Shown piece by piece: positions 12,777 to 32,642 of a DNA stretch of 32,942 nucleotides. Below the pieces are notes generated by a model. The model searched no databases. It was not told the DNA's origin and worked only from the letters and a program-made list of their open reading frames with translations. The stretch's first letter is position 1, and each line of letters opens with the position of its first letter. The position numbers and the translations under genes are program-made. The DNA comes from Deltaproteobacteria bacterium. GTDB lineage: Bacteria > Bdellovibrionota > Bacteriovoracia > Bacteriovoracales > Bacteriovoracaceae. The stretch covers positions 1-32,942 of the forward strand of contig SBGE01000015.1 in assembly GCA_006226755.1 (NCBI GenBank). Direction: 5' to 3'.

Positions 12777-13412
12777 ATGAAATCATTGATCACATTGATG
12801 TTCGTGCTTGCACTCAGCACACCGGCCTTCGCCAACAGAGCGACGGACGTATGGCAAAACTATTTTCCAGAAATGGATTGTAACCGTAATCCTTGTGCAA
12901 AAAATGTTTCAGCAGATGCTCTCGAAGAGTTTCTTGAAAAGGCCTCTTATCATAGACCTGAAAAACTAAGAAATACGACTTATGCATTCCTTGTTGATTT
13001 CACCATGCACTCAAAAAATAAAAGAGGTTGGTTGATCAATCTTAAAACGGGTGCTGCTGAAGCGATGCATGTTGCTCATGGAAAAGGTAGTGGAGACGGT
13101 TCCGGTCGAGCTGTTCGTTTCTCAAATAGAAACAACTCAAAAATGTCTTCGCTAGGACTTTATATCACAGCTGAAACTTATCATGGTTCAAATGGTTACT
13201 CTTTGAGACTTGATGGTCTTGAGAGCACCAACAGTGCTGCTCGTCCACGTGCTATCGTTATGCATGGAGCTGACTATATGTCATCAAGCTTCATTAACAG
13301 TAATGGACGTGCTGGTCGTTCTTGGGGGTGTCCAGCCATCGCTCAAAACATCAAGACGAGAGTGATCAACTCGCTTAAAGGTGGATCGCTTTTCTATCAC
13401 TACCATAACTAA
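12777..13412 (+). CDS. Secreted L,D-transpeptidase-type murein enzyme (YkuD_2 family)
   Basis: A 211-residue protein with a signal peptide (MKSLITLMFVLALSTPAFA). The catalytic domain shows the family's histidine (VMHGADYMSS, H163) and cysteine (GRSWGCPAI, C185) in the YkuD_2 arrangement. Enzymes of this fold cut or re-link L,D bonds of peptidoglycan stem peptides using the cysteine as nucleophile, in the periplasm. The length is close to typical for the family and all key residues are present. An AAGGGAG ribosome site precedes ATG 12777. It is a single gene after a terminator and faces the kinase-Nudix gene with seven bases between the stops. In a predator, such enzymes could act on self or prey wall; the sequence does not say which. 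Confidence 0.9.
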   Translation: MKSLITLMFVLALSTPAFANRATDVWQNYFPEMDCNRNPCAKNVSADALEEFLEKASYHRPEKLRNTTYAFLVDFTMHSKNKRGWLINLKTGAAEAMHVAHGKGSGDGSGRAVRFSNRNNSKMSSLGLYITAETYHGSNGYSLRLDGLESTNSAARPRAIVMHGADYMSSSFINSNGRAGRSWGCPAIAQNIKTRVINSLKGGSLFYHYHN

Positions 13413-23342: not shown

Positions 23343-24380
23343 ATGCCAATTAAGCTCCTTTCCATTCTCCTTTTTGTCATCACAGCACTCAGTACTGGAG
23401 AGGCCAGGACCCAACAAAAATCCGTTTTTGGACCAGATGATCGGGATAGAATCACCCAAACCGGAATGGCTCCTTATCTACGCATCGGCCAGGTTGGAAA
23501 TACTTGTACAGGTTTCATGATTGGTGAAAGCCATGTTTTAACAGCTGCAAAATGTGTCTTCGATCACATCAATAATAAGTGGATTGATGGAATTTATTTC
23601 ACTCCTGCTCGCGATGAAGAACAAACGCCTTTTGGTATTAGAGATTGGGAAAAAGTTCACGTTCATCAAAACTTTGCTCAAAAAGGTCTTTCAGATTGGA
23701 ACTTTGCAGTCATCAAATTGAAAAAACCGCTAGGCCGATCGACTGGCTACTTCTCTCTACCTTCTACTGATAATTATGCCGGTCCAGTTGAGATCCCAGG
23801 CTACCCTATGGATAAACCGATAAATACCATGTGGACCTCATCGTGTTTTGCCAACACCAGATCGAATCATTTGTACTACAAATGTGATACCTATGCGGGA
23901 ATGTCCGGTGCGCCGATATTAGTTGAAACCAATGGAGGCCACACGGCCTATGGTATTCACATCAATGAAGGAATAGAGGAAAACAGTGCTCTATACCTAG
24001 GAAATTTGAAGCGTTACTATATCAACCGATGGATGACCGATAACACTCCAGGTGGAACACTTACTAACAATAATCCTCATGCCAACAATGAAATTAAATT
24101 CAACAACATCTGGCTGAAAAATAACTGTGGTCTCAATTTGAATTTCAAACTGAAATACACAGACACAGATGGTGTTCTAAGAGAGATGGAAAGTTCTCTC
24201 GCTTTCAGTGAAGAGAACTTCATGTTCAAAACTAGAACTTCTGTTTACTTTATCAAAATTGAAGATTCAGAATGGATGGAAATGAAAATCACAGACTCTC
24301 AATGGGGAAAAGTGATTGATTATCTTCCTTGTCAGTATCCGTATGACTACTGGTATGTCACACCGATATCTCCTCTCTAA
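23343..24380 (+). CDS. Exported trypsin-fold protein lacking the catalytic histidine (pseudoprotease)
   Basis: A 345-residue protein with a signal peptide (MPIKLLSILLFVITALSTGEA). The first 230 residues follow trypsin-like/V8-type serine peptidases: CTGFMIGESHVLTAAKCV, SDWNFAVIKL (D118) and YAGMSGAPIL (S188). In the first motif the catalytic histidine is lysine (K70, codon AAA at 23550-23552; the usual form is TAAHC). The Asp and Ser are kept and the frame is open, so this looks like a retained non-catalytic protein, perhaps a binding or inhibitor-type homologue. Residues 240-345 form an added beta-rich C-terminal domain I cannot identify. Its last 23 bases overlap the 3' end of the convergent phosphoesterase gene. 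Confidence 0.85.
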   Translation: MPIKLLSILLFVITALSTGEARTQQKSVFGPDDRDRITQTGMAPYLRIGQVGNTCTGFMIGESHVLTAAKCVFDHINNKWIDGIYFTPARDEEQTPFGIRDWEKVHVHQNFAQKGLSDWNFAVIKLKKPLGRSTGYFSLPSTDNYAGPVEIPGYPMDKPINTMWTSSCFANTRSNHLYYKCDTYAGMSGAPILVETNGGHTAYGIHINEGIEENSALYLGNLKRYYINRWMTDNTPGGTLTNNNPHANNEIKFNNIWLKNNCGLNLNFKLKYTDTDGVLREMESSLAFSEENFMFKTRTSVYFIKIEDSEWMEMKITDSQWGKVIDYLPCQYPYDYWYVTPISPL

Positions 24381-25436: not shown

Positions 25437-26459
25437 TTAGGCCTGTTTATCTTTTTTTTTAGGATCCAGAACCTCATCGGCCGGAGAAACTTTTCCACGT
25501 CCGGTGTTTTTTGCTTCATACATCATCTTATCTGCAATTTCGAGGATATCTTGTCTGGTGCTGGCATGCTCCGGAAAGGTCGCCACACCAATGGAAACGG
25601 TAATCTTTTTTTCTTCACCAGTCTTGTGGACAGTAAAATGATTATTTTTCACATTTTTAAGAATTCTTTCACCTACAATTTTCCCAGTCTCAATTCCTTC
25701 ATCTGGAAGAATAATCACAAACTCATCTCCACCGTAACGATAAAGAAAGTCTGATGTTCTAACTGTCTCATGAATGACATCGGCGACATCTTTTAGAAGT
25801 TGTGTTCCAACGATATGCCCATGTCCATCGTTGACTGACTTGAAGTGATCAATATCAACAAATAGAACACAGAAATGTTGTTTAAAATCTTCAAAATTCT
25901 GAATACAGGTATCCAAGTCTTTCATCAGTCGTCTTTGATTATAAAGCCCTGTCACATCATCTTTATAGATGAGATCCTGCGCCTGCTCAAAGGCCTGCCA
26001 TTTCTGGAACATGACATGAGTATTTTGAATAAAACGGGAGAGATAATTCATAATCTCTACAGGAATATCTTTTTCAACTTTCCACAAGCAAAAGAAAAAC
26101 TGTTTTTCACGAAGACCAATTCTTGCGCTGTAGTAACTCGCTTTTCCACTCTTATAGACTTCCCAACTTTCAAGGTTCGTATTTTGTTTTTCAAGCAGTT
26201 CAAGAACCTCATCCACTTCATCTGAAGAATAATTATCCGGAATGGCATTTTTATTCCAGTGAAGACGACACTTCTCTTTATTTTTTCCTGAAAGATTTTT
26301 TGAATACACAAGCAGAGGGTGAGTTTCAAACTCTTCTTGAAGAAGTTTATCTACTCCTTCATAGAGCTTTCGGATTTCATCCACATGATTGTACCCGGAA
26401 ACCAGGTCCAACATGGACTGAAAGCCCTTGATTAATGTATCACTCTTCTTTCCTGCCAT
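25437..26459 (-). CDS. Diguanylate cyclase (GGDEF)
   Basis: A 340-residue soluble protein. Residues 165-325 form a GGDEF domain that makes cyclic di-GMP from two GTP: DDVTGLYNQR (168-177), LFVDIDHFKSVND, the intact signature YGGDEF (242-247), and an inhibitory I-site RTSD (234-237) five residues before it, so product feedback is expected. The N-terminal 150 residues are a sensor-like region with no family I can name; the pattern SWEVYKSGKASYYSARIGLREKQFFFCLW is reminiscent of a GAF fold. There is no membrane segment. Its start overlaps the stop of the pseudo-receiver gene by one base (TAATG), coupling the two. Confidence 0.93.
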   Translation of the reverse strand: MAGKKSDTLIKGFQSMLDLVSGYNHVDEIRKLYEGVDKLLQEEFETHPLLVYSKNLSGKNKEKCRLHWNKNAIPDNYSSDEVDEVLELLEKQNTNLESWEVYKSGKASYYSARIGLREKQFFFCLWKVEKDIPVEIMNYLSRFIQNTHVMFQKWQAFEQAQDLIYKDDVTGLYNQRRLMKDLDTCIQNFEDFKQHFCVLFVDIDHFKSVNDGHGHIVGTQLLKDVADVIHETVRTSDFLYRYGGDEFVIILPDEGIETGKIVGERILKNVKNNHFTVHKTGEEKKITVSIGVATFPEHASTRQDILEIADKMMYEAKNTGRGKVSPADEVLDPKKKDKQA

Positions 26460-29239
26460 TAAACCTTCTTGATTTTTTCAATCAATTCTTCATCGAGTTC
26501 TAGATCATCCTCTAGTACTTGAATGGATCCTCTAAGTGTCTTCATGATCTTGGCCAGTTTCTCTTCAACCTTGACTTTATCTTCTCTGGCCTTGGTCTCC
26601 TTAATCGCCGAATTTTCCATATTGAACTCGAGTTGGTCAATCTTTCGTTTCAATTCGAGAATTTTCATATCACGACTTCTCACTTGTGACTCGCTGTCCA
26701 TTGTCACTAACTCAAGTTGACTTTCAAGTTCCTTCTCTCTTTGCTTCACCTGGTTAAAATCGATTCTGACTTTTTGACTGAGTCTGTCGAATTCTTTTTG
26801 CATCTGGCGACTTTTCTCTTCCGAGATCGCCTTTTTCTCATCCGCCAAACGAATGCGATACTGCATTTCTTCAATTTCATCCTGATGACGCTTCTTCACG
26901 ATGGTAAGTTCGATCTTTACTTCATCAAGCTCTGCCTTGAGACCGAGGTTTTCTTGGTCAACCAGTTTTTTCTCAGTTTTAAGATCATTGATATCTTTAA
27001 GCAGTCCATCTCTTTCTTCACGAAGTTGTCTGATAGTGGCCTGTAGCCTCATCAACTCATCTTCATTATAGGCACTCGCCACCCTTCTTTCAGGAGGAGT
27101 GATCTCAATTGTTTCATCTGAACTGGCCGGGGTGAAAGTTGCAACTTCTGCTCTTTGAGGAATATGAGCAACCATAGTTGGTTGAGTGGCGTCTTCATCA
27201 ACTCCTGAAGAAACCAACGTTTCAGTAGCATCTCCAGTATGATCATCATCTTCTTCAGAGGCACCCAGCAAGGTTTCTGTCATGCCATCTTCTTCCTCTT
27301 CACCGAGAGAGAATCCAAGTTCTTCATCCTCATCATCTTCTTCAATCAGGGAAGCCAGATCGACATCTTCAGATTCATCAGCAGACAAATCTTCCGGAAC
27401 TCTAGCTGCATCCAAGGCCTCTTTTGTTGCTCCGTCATTTGAAAAGAGCATGGTGGCAACAGTGGCCTCGTCGTCTATTCCTTCATCGTCATCTGCACCA
27501 GCTCCAAAATCGAGGACTTCATCTGTTTCTTCAGCACTCTCTAAAGAAGCGACTTCTGCCGTTTCTTCTTCATCCATGGCGTCAAGATCCATATCTCCCA
27601 TCAAATCATCATCGACATCAGAAACATCAACGTCATCATCCAGTTCCATTGCATCCAAATCAAAGTCATCTCCATCGTCAACTGCAGCATTGGCAGCTTG
27701 AACTTCTGCATCACTTAAATCGAGATCCATATCATCGCCAAGATCGAGTTCATCATCTATTGTAGAATCAGCTGACATCTCATCATCACCACCGCTGAGA
27801 TCTAGCTCATCATCGTCATCTCCAAAGTCTAAATCTTCTGAAGGCGAAGGTGCTGCAGACAATTCTTCATCATCATCTTCTTCTCCGAACTCGAGTTCCG
27901 CCACGGCCTCAGAATCGGACTCCCCTTCCTCATCATCACTGCCATCAATGGAAAACCCTAATTCATCTGAATCATCTTCAGAGTCATCTTGTTCCTCGAG
28001 AGTATCAAATTGCATTCCACCTGATGATTCTTCTGCTTCATCAGCATCATCATCTGAAGGAATGTTGAAGTCGAGGATATCGTCTTCATCATCACGGTCA
28101 GTCATATTAACCTCACTGTTTTGGGGAGAATCTTGTTCGGGTTCTTGAATATTAATTTCTTCGGCCGAAGAATCATCATCGGCCAACATTTCTGCAACTT
28201 CAAATTCACCTGTCGCTTCGTCTGTCACCATAGGCTCAGGAGCAACAATATCTTGCTTAGTACTTTCTTCCAGATATTCATCATCTGAAAGATCCATCTC
28301 AGGAGAAGAGATTTCTTCTACCGAAGGCTCTTCATCATCTCCTCCAAAATCGAGAGAGATGGCCGCAACATCAGCTTCATTGGTACTTTCTTCAAAGTCA
28401 TCATCATCGTCTCTTTCAGGAGTAGGTTCAGAAATTTCAAAATCAGGGAGTCCACCAGCTCCTTCACTGAACACACGGTCGAACTTTGCCTGAATTTTTT
28501 CATTTAGTTCACTTTCGTAAGTCACTTTCCAGTTTTCGTTGAGCACACCATGCTTTTCCAAAACTTTGGTTTCTTCATGAGAAAGCTTTACCGGCTCATC
28601 TGGAGCATCTTGAATATCGGTAGCAGTTTTCTGATCTCCATCTACTTCTTCATCATCTCCAGAGCCAAATTGAAGAATATTGTCCATATCTTCATCGTCA
28701 TCTGAATCACCAGAATCTCCTGGCTTTGGCATCTGCATTGGAGCAGCTTCAAAAACTTCATCATCATCTTCTTCAAAATCAGAATCAGATGCACCGCTGA
28801 GATCTGAGCGCACGCCAACAAAAGTCAGTTCAGCTTCTTCAACAGCTTTATCTCCTTCATTGAGAAGATTGTTTTCTTCGACGTAGTCAGCAATTTCAAA
28901 ATTATTTACAAGAGAAGCAACCAGCTTTCCTGTTAAAGGCTTTTTAATATAACCGTAAGCCGAGACTTCTGAGAGTTGATGTTTCTTTAATTCTTTGACT
29001 GAGGCCTTGGCCGTGATGATGATTCGAATCACCGACGTGTCTTCATAAAGTGTTGAGTTGACGAATTCGGCTTCTGATTTATTCCCATCGAGATCGATAA
29101 AGAGCAGAATCTTTTCATCAGAGGAATTGACGCAATCCTGCACTTCATCCAAGCTGGATGCCATCGTGACTTCGATCCCCTCTAGTAGGGACCCAATTTC
29201 AGCCACTTCGGGGTCTGTGGAGTAAAAGCAAATTCTCAT
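26459..29239 (-). CDS. Pseudo-receiver / acidic linker / coiled-coil protein (FrzS/AglZ-like layout)
   Basis: A 926-residue protein in three parts. Residues 1-120 form a CheY-like receiver: D49 (LLFIDLDG), T76 (IIITAKA) and K100-P101 (GYIKKP) fit, but the acidic pair after strand 1 is replaced by Ser-Thr (FYSTDPE), so it is probably a pseudo-receiver that does not phosphorylate normally. Residues 150-700 are extremely rich in Asp, Glu and Ser, likely disordered, with repeated short motifs of LDFG type. Residues 720-926 form a long coiled coil (for example IRQLREERDGLLKDINDLK). The layout matches the myxobacterial polarity proteins FrzS and AglZ (pseudo-receiver plus coiled coil) better than an ordinary response regulator. 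It heads an operon with a diguanylate cyclase and a phosphoesterase, so a polar hub linked to c-di-GMP is a reasonable inference. Confidence 0.85.
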   Translation of the reverse strand: MRICFYSTDPEVAEIGSLLEGIEVTMASSLDEVQDCVNSSDEKILLFIDLDGNKSEAEFVNSTLYEDTSVIRIIITAKASVKELKKHQLSEVSAYGYIKKPLTGKLVASLVNNFEIADYVEENNLLNEGDKAVEEAELTFVGVRSDLSGASDSDFEEDDDEVFEAAPMQMPKPGDSGDSDDDEDMDNILQFGSGDDEEVDGDQKTATDIQDAPDEPVKLSHEETKVLEKHGVLNENWKVTYESELNEKIQAKFDRVFSEGAGGLPDFEISEPTPERDDDDDFEESTNEADVAAISLDFGGDDEEPSVEEISSPEMDLSDDEYLEESTKQDIVAPEPMVTDEATGEFEVAEMLADDDSSAEEINIQEPEQDSPQNSEVNMTDRDDEDDILDFNIPSDDDADEAEESSGGMQFDTLEEQDDSEDDSDELGFSIDGSDDEEGESDSEAVAELEFGEEDDDEELSAAPSPSEDLDFGDDDDELDLSGGDDEMSADSTIDDELDLGDDMDLDLSDAEVQAANAAVDDGDDFDLDAMELDDDVDVSDVDDDLMGDMDLDAMDEEETAEVASLESAEETDEVLDFGAGADDDEGIDDEATVATMLFSNDGATKEALDAARVPEDLSADESEDVDLASLIEEDDEDEELGFSLGEEEEDGMTETLLGASEEDDDHTGDATETLVSSGVDEDATQPTMVAHIPQRAEVATFTPASSDETIEITPPERRVASAYNEDELMRLQATIRQLREERDGLLKDINDLKTEKKLVDQENLGLKAELDEVKIELTIVKKRHQDEIEEMQYRIRLADEKKAISEEKSRQMQKEFDRLSQKVRIDFNQVKQREKELESQLELVTMDSESQVRSRDMKILELKRKIDQLEFNMENSAIKETKAREDKVKVEEKLAKIMKTLRGSIQVLEDDLELDEELIEKIKKV

Positions 29240-29327
29240 TCTCTTCTCGTAGCTTAAGTCTATGATATCATTGTGCAGTTAAAGTACAATTCAAGGAAAA
29301 TCATGACCCTACGATAAGTAATATCGG

Positions 29328-29356
29328 TTGATTCTTTAGTGGTGCTTCATTAAAAT
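29328..29356 (+). promoter_or_regulatory. Candidate sigma70-type promoter of the bactofilin operon
   Basis: TTGATT (29328-29333) and TAAAAT (29351-29356) are 17 bases apart, matching the consensus at four and five of six positions. Transcription would start near 29363, 47 bases before the ATG of the first gene. The ribosome site of that gene is weak. Confidence 0.5.
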
Positions 29357-29409
29357 TATTACTGACTTAATCAATCGTAGAAATTGCCTACTTCAACAAA
29401 GATTGTTTT

Positions 29410-30450
29410 ATGGCTTATCGATTTACTCAAATGCTTCTTGCCCTCGTCTTCACGTTTACTGCAAACGCGAATGAGTTTTATCCAGAGAACTTGATTCAAC
29501 TGGATAGTTATTTTACTCATCACGTTTTGGTAGCGGAGAAGCTGACACACAAGCTCTACCTTTTTGAAAATAAAGACGGACTTCCTTCCTTGGTTAAGAC
29601 CTATCAAATGGCGACCGGAAAGAAATCTGGAGACAAGGTTTTCCAAGGTGACCACAGAACACCTGAAGGTGTTTACCAGTTCATCGATTTTCTTACTCAT
29701 GAAGATCTTCTCAAAAGACACGGCAAGCAAGGTGAAATTTACGGAGTGGGTGCATTCGTCATGAACTACCCTAACCCGATGGATGCACGCGATGGAAAAA
29801 CAGGCGGCGGAATCTGGCTTCACTCAACAAATGATGAAACTCGTATCGACAAAGGTCTTGATTCCAGAGGTTGTATTGTTTCTGCCAATAAAGATCTCAT
29901 CGATATCTCAAAATACATTGAACTCGATCGGACCAAGGTGGTTGTTGTTCATGAGCTCAACTGGTTGTCCAAAGAAACCTACCTGAGTCGTAAAAAAGAA
30001 ATTCTCGACGGTCTTGAAACCTGGAGAGCTTCTTGGGAAAAAGAAGATATCAAAGGCTACATTGAAGCCTATCACTCTAAAGAATTCCGAGATGACCGCC
30101 ATGGTGGGCTCGAAAACTTCCGTACTTATAAAAAGAATGTTTTTTGGGGCGAAGGAACTCCTGAAGTAGGCGTTTCCAATGTCAGCATCCTCGCAGGTGC
30201 CGACTATGTCCTGATCAGCTTTCTCCAGGATTACAAGTCAACTACGATTCAAGATATTGGTGTGAAAAAACTCTATCTCAAACGGAATGAGTGGCACCAA
30301 TGGAAAATCGTATACGAAGGTTGGACCAAGCAAGGAATCAGCGAAGAAGCCGACACACGAGTGGCCTTCAAGCCATCACTTCGTTTTTTCAAATCAGGTC
30401 AACCTGATCAGATCATGACTGTTCCCATCAACCAGAAGGAAAACAACTAA
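29410..30450 (+). CDS. L,D-transpeptidase-fold wall enzyme with NTF2-like tail (Csd6/Bd1075-like)
   Basis: A 346-residue protein with a signal peptide (MAYRFTQMLLALVFTFTANA). Residues 35-180 are a YkuD domain: HVLVAEKLTHKLYLFE, KVFQGDHRTPEGVYQF, and the catalytic GIWLHST (H138) and SRGCIV (C155). Residues 195-320 resemble an NTF2/SnoaL-like domain (WRASWEKEDIKGYIEAYHSKEF; WKIVYEGWT). This combination is that of Helicobacter Csd6 and Bdellovibrio Bd1075, which act as LD-carboxypeptidases trimming tetrapeptides to tripeptides and bending or twisting the cell. It is followed after three bases by a membrane coiled-coil gene and then a bactofilin, which strongly supports a cell-shape role. Cross-linking activity is the alternative. 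Confidence 0.9.
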   Translation: MAYRFTQMLLALVFTFTANANEFYPENLIQLDSYFTHHVLVAEKLTHKLYLFENKDGLPSLVKTYQMATGKKSGDKVFQGDHRTPEGVYQFIDFLTHEDLLKRHGKQGEIYGVGAFVMNYPNPMDARDGKTGGGIWLHSTNDETRIDKGLDSRGCIVSANKDLIDISKYIELDRTKVVVVHELNWLSKETYLSRKKEILDGLETWRASWEKEDIKGYIEAYHSKEFRDDRHGGLENFRTYKKNVFWGEGTPEVGVSNVSILAGADYVLISFLQDYKSTTIQDIGVKKLYLKRNEWHQWKIVYEGWTKQGISEEADTRVAFKPSLRFFKSGQPDQIMTVPINQKENN

Positions 30451-30453
30451 GAA

Positions 30454-31194
30454 ATGGAAACAAGGACAAGTTCCAAGAAGCTCGGCTTTCTCGTCTATGA
30501 AGCCGAAAATGCTCCTCGATATTACGAAATTAAAAAAAGCCTCTTGAAGTTCATTATTTATGGATTGCCTTTGACGACTCTGGTTCTTCTAGCAGTCGTT
30601 CTTATGGGTTCTGTCTACTTTGAGCAAATCTCAGAACGAGCAAAGAGAAAAGAGCCTGTGATCATCAAAGAACTTCGTGACAATGTCTCTGACCTTGAGA
30701 ATAGATTGGCCGAGGCTCAAGTTCTGACCAAGAATCTTGAAGATAGATTGGCCAAGGGAGATACCTCGACGGACATCATCAGAAATACAATGGGACTCTT
30801 CCTTCCTGTCCCAGGCATGCAGGACCTCACTCGTACACCTAACCTTGCCGTAGAAAATATTGAACCGGTGATCAGCGGAGACAGAATCCAACTGAAGTTC
30901 AATATCATCAACCAAACCAAGGACAATCAAAAACTTGCTGGCTACATTTTTGTGATGATGAAACATGCTGGAAAAATCCACGTCTTCCCTGAAAACAGCA
31001 TTGAAGAGAGTGAATTCAAAATCAAATTCAACTCCGGTGAATCATTTGCGACTCAACGTTTTCGTCCGGTGGATAATGTTTTCTTCCCTTACAAGTCAGG
31101 AAACATTGAAGATTTCCTTTTTAAAGTTTTGATCTTTTCAAGAACTGGTGACCTACTCTACAAGCAGCTGGTCAGCAAAAAAATGGCCCAATAA
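30454..31194 (+). CDS. Single-pass membrane coiled-coil protein of the bactofilin operon
   Basis: A 246-residue protein. A basic cytoplasmic N-terminus of about 30 residues (SSKKLGFLVYEAENAPRYYEIKK in part) leads to one membrane helix (about 33-54, FIIYGLPLTTLVLLAVVLMG), then a coiled coil (about 62-98, RDNVSDLENRLAEAQVLTKNLEDRLAK) and a periplasmic beta-rich domain of about 130 residues. No catalytic motif is visible. It lies three bases after the wall-enzyme gene and ten before the bactofilin start. By position and topology it could link the cytoplasmic bactofilin to the periplasmic enzyme, as Csd5 or Csd7 do in Helicobacter; no sequence relationship to these is claimed. Confidence 0.82.
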   Translation: METRTSSKKLGFLVYEAENAPRYYEIKKSLLKFIIYGLPLTTLVLLAVVLMGSVYFEQISERAKRKEPVIIKELRDNVSDLENRLAEAQVLTKNLEDRLAKGDTSTDIIRNTMGLFLPVPGMQDLTRTPNLAVENIEPVISGDRIQLKFNIINQTKDNQKLAGYIFVMMKHAGKIHVFPENSIEESEFKIKFNSGESFATQRFRPVDNVFFPYKSGNIEDFLFKVLIFSRTGDLLYKQLVSKKMAQ

Positions 31195-31204
31195 GGATAA
31201 TGTG

Positions 31205-31567
31205 ATGACTGACTATACTGAGCTTGTTAACAGAGAATTCACCCATATCGGCAGCCAATGTAAACTTCGTGGTGAATTTCATTTCACAGGGAAAACTCAA
31301 ATCTGTTGTCAGATGGAAGGGGAAATTCATATGGCCGACAAGAGTGAACTCTGTCTAGATCATGGTTCTCACTTCACCGGAACAATCTATTGTCACAATA
31401 TTGAAATCTATGGAAGATTCGAAGGTACTTTGAAGTCAACTGGTAAAGTCGTGATCTACTCACCTGCTGAAATCAACGGCCTAGTGGATTCTAATTCTCT
31501 CAAGATTCATCCAGGTGCTGTCCTCAATATGGATGGGCACACTCGAATTGAATCACCAAACGCCTAA
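31205..31567 (+). CDS. Bactofilin
   Basis: A 120-residue protein with the repetitive right-handed beta-helix pattern of bactofilins: short rungs with recurring G-x-[FILV] turns (GSQCKLRGEFHF, TGKTQICCQMEGEIHM, GTIYCHNIEIYGRFEGTL, STGKVVIYSPAEINGLV). Bactofilins polymerise without nucleotide into filaments at the inner membrane and place wall-modifying enzymes. I use ATG 31205, seven bases after AAGGA (31193-31197); an in-frame reading from 31148 would lie within the preceding gene. Five cysteines in a cytoplasmic filament protein of this size is unusual. It is the last gene of the operon; no clear terminator follows. Confidence 0.92.
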   Translation: MTDYTELVNREFTHIGSQCKLRGEFHFTGKTQICCQMEGEIHMADKSELCLDHGSHFTGTIYCHNIEIYGRFEGTLKSTGKVVIYSPAEINGLVDSNSLKIHPGAVLNMDGHTRIESPNA

Positions 31568-31655: not shown

Positions 31656-32642
31656 ATGAAAAAACAGCTACTTACGGCCGGACTTTGTGTCCTTATGTCT
31701 GCTTCTACTGTCGCTTTAAGCGCCACTCCGAAGATCATCTACGGAGAAGACAACAGACAGGAAGTTCTGGATTATCCAGATGCCATGTTTAGAGACTTGG
31801 CAAAATCAACGGCCGGTATGGTTCGAGCTTCAGCTTTAAGAACTGAATCAGGTTCAAGCATTGGTAACGACCTAGCTGATTCAATTGATAGCTTGAGGGC
31901 CATTCTTGGTGACTCAGCAATCGATAATATGTTGGCCGATAACGGACTTCAAACAGAAGAAGATGATTCAACTGAAGGATTCTATACTTTTAACACTTCA
32001 AACACACTTAGAAGAAGTATGGGTGTTTGTGAAAAAGAAAGATTCTCTAACCAAGTAACACTTCCAAGATGTTCAGGATTTCTTGTTGGTGAAGATATAC
32101 TTGTGACTGCTGGTCACTGTGTAACTTCAATGAGTGACTGTACAAACTTCAGATGGGTATTTGACTATACTGCAGGAACAAGCAAAATCAAAAAATCTGA
32201 CGTATATAAGTGTAAAGAAGTAATTGGTAGAAAGCAGACTCTTGGTCTTTTCGCGACTAAAGATTACGCCGTGATCAGACTTGATAGAAAGGCAGAAGAT
32301 AGAGAGCCTCTAAAATTCAGAAAAAGAGGAAGCGTCAAGAAAAACGACGAAATCGTAGTTATAGGTCACCCATCAGGTCTTCCAACCAAGATCGCTGACG
32401 GAGCAAAAGTTACCAAAGAAAGATTCAACTTTTTCTATGCGAACCTTGATACTTACGGTGGAAACTCTGGTTCAGCTGTTTTCAACAAGAAGACTGGTGA
32501 GGTTGAAGGTATCCTTATCCAAGGTGCTCAAGACTATGTAATGTCATCTGAAGGTTGTTATGTTTCTAATAGAACTGGAAACACTGCTGATGATGCCAAA
32601 GAAAAAGTTTTCAAGATCACTAAAGTAAAAGAAATCAAATAA
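31656..32642 (+). CDS. Secreted trypsin-like serine protease
   Basis: A 328-residue protein with a signal peptide (MKKQLLTAGLCVLMSASTVALSA). A region of about 110 residues, probably a propeptide, precedes the peptidase domain. The triad is complete: H154 (CSGFLVGEDILVTAGHC), D203 (TKDYAVIRL) and S271 (YGGNSGSAVF). These contexts are of the V8/glutamyl-endopeptidase-like type, not the classical GDSGGP type. Additional cysteines allow disulfides. It would hydrolyse proteins outside the cytoplasm; in a predator, prey proteins are a plausible target. Single gene, with a GGGGAG ribosome site and its own terminator. It contrasts with the histidine-lacking relative at 23.3 kb. Confidence 0.93.
   Translation: MKKQLLTAGLCVLMSASTVALSATPKIIYGEDNRQEVLDYPDAMFRDLAKSTAGMVRASALRTESGSSIGNDLADSIDSLRAILGDSAIDNMLADNGLQTEEDDSTEGFYTFNTSNTLRRSMGVCEKERFSNQVTLPRCSGFLVGEDILVTAGHCVTSMSDCTNFRWVFDYTAGTSKIKKSDVYKCKEVIGRKQTLGLFATKDYAVIRLDRKAEDREPLKFRKRGSVKKNDEIVVIGHPSGLPTKIADGAKVTKERFNFFYANLDTYGGNSGSAVFNKKTGEVEGILIQGAQDYVMSSEGCYVSNRTGNTADDAKEKVFKITKVKEIK

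Follow-up and report, generated by a model that had tools for sequence, protein, structure and literature searches.

How might a periplasmic enzyme that trims the wall find one flank of the cell? According to Banks et al. (PMC8938487), there is no known mechanism by which bacteria direct a protein to one of their lateral sides, and the question is raised here by three co-directional genes at positions 29410-31567 of the window, the whole stretch of 32,942 nucleotides that was analysed (Table 1). They encode a YkuD+NTF2 enzyme, a one-pass membrane protein, called here the linker, and a bactofilin, with gaps of 3 bases (gene 1/gene 2) and 10 bases (gene 2/gene 3). The original prediction, made from the letters alone, had described this layout and these gaps, which the coordinates confirmed, and had proposed that the membrane protein bridges filament and enzyme in a self-contained shape module. 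Scans for promoters and terminators, which included the divergent region upstream of the trio, gave no match above chance.

Table 1. Features of the trio and its upstream neighbourhood (positions in the window; residues in the respective protein).
Feature	Position	Strand	Length	Basis
Divergent neighbour: receiver-like N-terminus, acidic low-complexity, C-terminal coiled coil	26459..29239	-	926 aa	
Divergent intergenic region, common to the trio and the upstream coiled-coil gene; presumed promoter region	29240..29409	.		
Gene 1, YkuD+NTF2 periplasmic LD-carboxypeptidase-type enzyme (Csd6/Pgp2/Bd1075 type)	29410..30450	+	346 aa	
Gene 1, YkuD domain	residues 39-179			
Gene 1, NTF2-like domain	residues 198-303			
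Gene 1, H138 codon	29821-29823	+		
Gene 1, C155 codon	29872-29874	+		
Gene 1, targeting-pocket equivalents Y275 and W305	W305 codon 30322-30324	+		
Gene 2, linker/adaptor: cytoplasmic β-hairpin, one TM, coiled coil, periplasmic Ig-like β-domain (predicted)	30454..31194	+	246 aa	
Linker residues 9-27 (strands 9-16/19-27), predicted cytoplasmic β-hairpin, LmdC type; proposed bactofilin-binding motif	30478..30534	+		AF2
Linker residues 28-100, TM running into coiled-coil helix (predicted)	30535..30753	+		AF2
Linker residues 131-243, predicted eight-stranded Ig-like β-domain; proposed enzyme- or wall-facing part	30844..31182	+		AF2
Gene 3, bactofilin (PF04519)	31205..31567	+	120 aa	

Gene 1 matched the Pfam families YkuD (PF03734, E 1e-13) and Cds6_C, the Csd6-type NTF2-like domain (PF24125, E 1e-19), both over the cut-off. 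Using phmmer, its closest PDB match was 7o21, Bd1075 of Bdellovibrio (E 1.7e-40, residues 22-311), followed by Pgp2 and Csd6 (4xzz, 6xj6). H138 and C155, the equivalents of H141 and C156 of Bd1075, were invariant among 40 relatives, in accordance with the enzyme, the NTF2-like tail and the two residues that had been named at the outset. By its domain pair and catalytic His/Cys, gene 1 can be assigned to the Csd6/Pgp2/Bd1075 family of LD-carboxypeptidases, and its product would be expected to trim tetrapeptides to tripeptides. The window also encodes a secreted YkuD_2-family protein (12777-13412, + strand; PF13645, E 5e-53), which belongs to a different sequence family from gene 1.

Targeting of Bd1075 to the convex face depends on its NTF2 domain, together with W303 and Y274, and the NTF2 domain of Pgp2 is reported to bind peptidoglycan (PMC8938487), a binding that could account for targeting even if no other protein were touched. 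Across Bacteriovoracales, the position of Y274 was occupied by Tyr in 114/116 sequences, and that of W303 by Trp in 106/116 and by Phe in 10/116; a Trp at this position is not restricted to Bdellovibrio. Outside this order, the W303 equivalent was present in 8/9 enzymes with an adjacent linker vs 10/24 without one (p 0.018, a statistic that ignores kinship), a difference that is suggestive only. One attractive, if putative, possibility is recognition of the linker's Ig-like domain by the NTF2 pocket. An extra YkuD-NTF2 protein closely resembling that of Bacteriovoracales (E 1e-136) occurs in a genome of another family (G186, C4_MAG_00031; L129/L182); its gene does not lie beside the linker of that genome and could have been acquired by gene transfer.

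The identification of gene 3 as a bactofilin was borne out by PF04519 (E 4.3e-19, 69 bits against a cut-off of 27.9). It is the second bactofilin of the window's genome, the other (G000:C81, L130) being located in a parA-parB-bactofilin-atp cluster. This parA-parB-bactofilin-ATP-synthase arrangement recurs across the phylum (L123-L125, L130, L131, L133, L135-L137).

The linker matched no Pfam or NCBIfam family, neither alone nor through 51 relatives. Hydropathy and charge indicated one TM segment starting at about residue 33 (about residues 33-51) after an inside-positive N-terminus; no second TM segment was found in any of 48 relatives, and the N-side flank was the more positive one in 35/48, which places the N-terminus inside in most of them. 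The AlphaFold2 model, obtained with 51 relatives (mean pLDDT 90), predicts a cytoplasmic hairpin, a helix that crosses the membrane and continues as a coiled coil (residues 28-100), and a periplasmic β-domain, in agreement with the one-pass, coiled-coil protein originally described. Foldseek retrieved generic Ig-like relatives alone, with low TM-scores, and there was no enzyme among the matches. An M23 peptidase domain (PF01551) was not found in the linker, whose head is predicted to be Ig-like, and no SH3 family was among the families listed. We also considered the linker as a divergent DUF6776 protein and dropped this idea: none of 51 linker sequences had a convincing Pfam match, and the families listed did not include DUF6776.

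Two weak linker matches in Bdellovibrionaceae and one in another family (f9) proved to be the N-termini of LmdC-type M23 peptidases and were rejected as linkers, but they led us to compare the hairpins. The linker hairpin and the N-termini of LmdC-type M23 peptidases aligned in register in a profile comparison (Prob 96, score 49-51), and the score dropped to 29-40 once the hairpin columns were shuffled; part of this score stems from the TM segment, the similarity of the hairpin being weak by itself. These values point to a strong similarity of plan and motif, short of proven common descent. In Rhodospirillum rubrum LmdC, mutating the hairpin abolishes recruitment by the bactofilin (PMC10945521), and by analogy the linker hairpin would bind the co-encoded bactofilin. 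LmdC-type M23 peptidases are near-universal in the phylum (54/59 genomes; L228-L257, G000:C259), and their genes were not adjacent to the phylum's bactofilin genes examined.

Within the window's order, Bacteriovoracales, the linker was found in 103/116 genomes (43/46 genera) and in 70/73 of the well-sequenced ones. The neighbourhood comparison revealed that enzyme, linker and bactofilin genes are contiguous in 70/70 loci (69 other Bacteriovoracales and the window), mostly with translationally coupled gaps of -4 to +15 bases, so the refuting condition set at the outset, a middle gene not conserved with the other two, does not hold. The arrangement is not due to chance, because order and strand were the same in every one of these loci, and the whole unit displays conserved coupling of a bactofilin gene with that of a wall hydrolase. 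On contigs of the Bacteriovorax/Halobacteriovorax type, the trio was complete in 42 cases and cut by a contig end in 3, with one exception (L188). The three well-sequenced genomes of genus g10 (G011, G019, G034) lack the linker, the YkuD enzyme and any bactofilin, a joint absence; weak linker matches in this genus corresponded to other proteins, located in a pilus-like cluster. Genus g10 belongs to Bacteriovoracaceae and has small genomes (2.4-2.9 Mb); its cell shape would be informative.

The divergent neighbour retains a conserved C-terminal coiled coil, and one of its relatives matches PF00072 (E 1.9e-8). This receiver/coiled-coil gene adjoins the linker locus almost everywhere in the phylum, in divergent orientation; it was rejected as an obligate fourth member, since it is kept in genomes without linker and bactofilin. 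The window encodes two secreted trypsin-like serine proteases (23343-24380 and 31656-32642), the second of which (PF13365, E 2e-18) lies directly 3' of the bactofilin gene and is a genus-specific neighbour replacing an M16 pair.

In the other families of the phylum, the bactofilin gene was directly 3' of the linker in 39/40 loci, the exception being a contig end, and none of these 40 loci had a YkuD gene adjacent to the linker. Most of ten genomes from sister families that carry linker and bactofilin encode a YkuD enzyme elsewhere. The module is therefore not self-contained, given that within the phylum the YkuD gene is part of the cluster only in Bacteriovoracales and sister families have linker plus bactofilin. 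Nor does the trio extend across Bdellovibrionota: in Bdellovibrionaceae-type genomes, including one whose Bd1075 is 85% identical to the crystal sequence, sensitive searches detected no linker, and the sole bactofilin is in the parA-parB-bactofilin-atp cluster, far from the enzyme gene. The Bd1075 gene of Bdellovibrio is placed head-to-head with FliL-M16a-M16b (L126, L127). The same M16 peptidase pair flanks linker-bactofilin in many families (most of L033-L119), and this common flank suggests a neighbourhood of common ancestry with subsequent loss. The linker is thus not universally needed; Bd1075 localises and works without a detectable one, and its targeting must work otherwise.

Outside Bacteriovoracales, a linker homologue was located directly 3' of YkuD in eight loci, of which L207 and L213 are weak matches, from KSB1, SM23_31, Latescibacterota, Desulfobacterota (Desulfobacterales) and others. 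The named-genome scan used the enzyme alignment, and its 80 loci are biased towards enzyme-containing ones. The homology was reciprocal: a model built from six outside linkers retrieved 102 proteins among the ORFs of the phylum, all of them known linkers. With a linker-based search of a Desulfobacterales class, the linker was found in 4/8 genomes and beside YkuD in 4/4, one of these loci (L260) also carrying a bactofilin. The gene that usually follows the YkuD-linker pair in other phyla encodes a Csd4-type M99 carboxypeptidase (PF17033), while no M99 gene adjoined the trio in the window or in Bacteriovoracales loci. M99 (Csd4/Pgp1) and YkuD-NTF2 (Csd6/Pgp2) enzymes are successive carboxypeptidases of the helical-shape pathway of Helicobacter and Campylobacter, to which PF17033 owes its name. 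A bactofilin gene was also present in two Desulfobacterales-type YkuD-linker loci, the order in L210 was YkuD, linker, M99, LmdC-like M23 and bactofilin, and all of the nine checked non-Bacteriovoracales genomes with a YkuD-linker pair have a bactofilin. The linker is the constant element of the cluster, and its partners vary by lineage.

In one deltaproteobacterial MAG (L197, JACRNJ010000025.1), a protein of 542 aa combines YkuD, NTF2 and the outer domain of the linker (residues 403-541, E 2e-19). The fusion gene lies between a bactofilin gene, from which 6 bases separate its start, and the gene of a Csd4-type M99 carboxypeptidase. The AlphaFold2 model of this natural fusion (30 paired rows) reached a pTM of 0.54, with a disordered tether (355-429) and no confident packing of the β-domain on YkuD-NTF2. 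Separate pairing with each partner, a fusion to the enzyme and an LmdC-type hairpin support the proposed bridge, in which direct contact with the enzyme is putative; pairing and fusion likewise favour physical recruitment of the hydrolase by the bactofilin.

We consider, with a probability of roughly 0.6, that the trio is a morphogenetic operon whose middle gene encodes a non-enzymatic adaptor joining the bactofilin polymer to the periplasmic LD-carboxypeptidase. We read the linker as an LmdC-like adaptor without an enzyme head that serves a separate LD-carboxypeptidase. Its homologues adjoin the enzyme gene, the bactofilin gene or both in several phyla, and in one genome its outer domain is fused to the enzyme, which makes it the best candidate for positioning the enzyme. 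According to this proposal, the bactofilin would polymerise beneath the inner membrane, the cytoplasmic β-hairpin of the linker would dock on it as the LmdC hairpin does, and the TM/coiled-coil helix would cross the membrane and reach into the periplasm. There, the Ig-like domain would hold or concentrate the soluble YkuD-NTF2 enzyme, directly or via local peptidoglycan, and the enzyme would trim tetrapeptides to tripeptides along the bactofilin track only, so that the restricted trimming may curve or otherwise shape the cell. The contact between linker and enzyme and the role of the trio in cell shape are both putative, and gene order alone is no proof of physical contact.

The same data could be explained if the linker anchors the bactofilin to the wall, its Ig-like domain binding peptidoglycan and placing the track, with a co-expressed YkuD enzyme that targets itself through its NTF2 domain. 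Csd5, which crosses the membrane and is bound to CcmA on the cytoplasmic side and, via SH3, to peptidoglycan on the outer side (PMC9507126), would be a precedent, and Bdellovibrio Bd1075 working without a linker, the linker-bactofilin pairs without an adjacent enzyme and the fusion model without predicted packing all fit such an anchor. We find it unlikely, however, as it leaves unexplained the YkuD-linker pairs that, in several phyla, lack an adjacent bactofilin and the fusion of YkuD with the β-domain. That fusion, together with the tight co-expression, would also suit an obligate complex in which the linker stabilises or activates the enzyme and the bactofilin modulates it, as Csd7 stabilises Csd1 in the Csd7-Csd1-CcmA system (PMC9507126); a stabiliser instead of a positioner seems distinctly improbable, given an enzyme without linker in Bdellovibrio and unlinked YkuD genes in sister families.

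Another view concerns the process served: instead of curvature, the operon could serve the division site, a pole or the growth of the predator within its prey. The operon has no known phenotype, poles and stalks are further sites of bactofilin action, and the conserved divergent neighbour is a receiver/coiled-coil protein without an assigned role. Nevertheless, the homologous enzymes Csd6, Pgp2 and Bd1075 determine curvature (PMC8938487), and linker operons elsewhere add M99, as well as M23 and bactofilin in L210, that is, several helical-shape enzyme classes, so we regard a different process as quite unlikely. That three functionally unrelated genes ended up in this order by chance is barely credible: some flanking genes (the M16 pair and the receiver/coiled-coil gene) are also syntenic, but the recurrent cross-phylum pairing, the fusion and the joint loss contradict it.

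Beyond the adaptor function preferred for the trio, the odds appear evenly balanced for a wider claim, namely that an undescribed cross-phylum adaptor family relays the position of the bactofilin through the inner membrane to LD-carboxypeptidases of the Csd6 type and, in some phyla, also to enzymes of the Csd4 type. If true, this would be a general device for targeting wall-trimming enzymes from the inside to the outside, and in these lineages it would account for the delivery of a periplasmic enzyme to one cell side. One-side targeting would become directly testable through the adaptor, the conserved targeting residues of the enzyme and gene-by-gene deletion in culturable Bacteriovorax relatives. 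Through the hairpin common to both, the principle of the bactofilin-M23 module would also apply to another class of enzyme. Bactofilin plus wall hydrolase is already known as a kind of system; the adaptor family, its pairing with an LD-carboxypeptidase and its cross-phylum spread were not found in the literature searched.

Regarding known systems, gene 1 resembles Bd1075 of Bdellovibrio bacteriovorus (PMC8938487, 7o21) in keeping YkuD and NTF2, the His/Cys pair, the pocket Tyr and the targeting Trp; unlike in the trio, the Bd1075 gene is away from linker and bactofilin, in its head-to-head position with FliL-M16a-M16b. Csd6 of H. pylori and Pgp2 of C. jejuni (4xzz, 6xj6) have the same domain pair and are similar to gene 1, although Pgp2 lacks the C-terminal Trp position. 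Operons with Csd4/Pgp1-type M99 genes are comparable to the YkuD-linker loci of other phyla, where M99 is adjoining, and differ from the trio of the window and Bacteriovoracales, beside which it is absent. The linker would work like Csd5 and Csd7 of H. pylori with CcmA, TM proteins that tie a bactofilin to wall functions (PMC9507126), but Csd5 has an SH3 domain and binds MurF, and no homology to the linker was found. A parallel in plan is offered by the bactofilin-LmdC (M23) module of Hyphomonas neptunium and Rhodospirillum rubrum (PMC10945521), which shares the two-gene coupling with a bactofilin and a bitopic protein with cytoplasmic β-hairpin, TM, coiled coil and periplasmic head, as predicted for the linker. 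Unlike LmdC, the linker has a non-enzymatic Ig-like head, and the hydrolase, of the YkuD-NTF2 LD-carboxypeptidase type, is a protein of its own that is joined to such a head in a single fusion; the linker would thus work like LmdC, but it is not LmdC.
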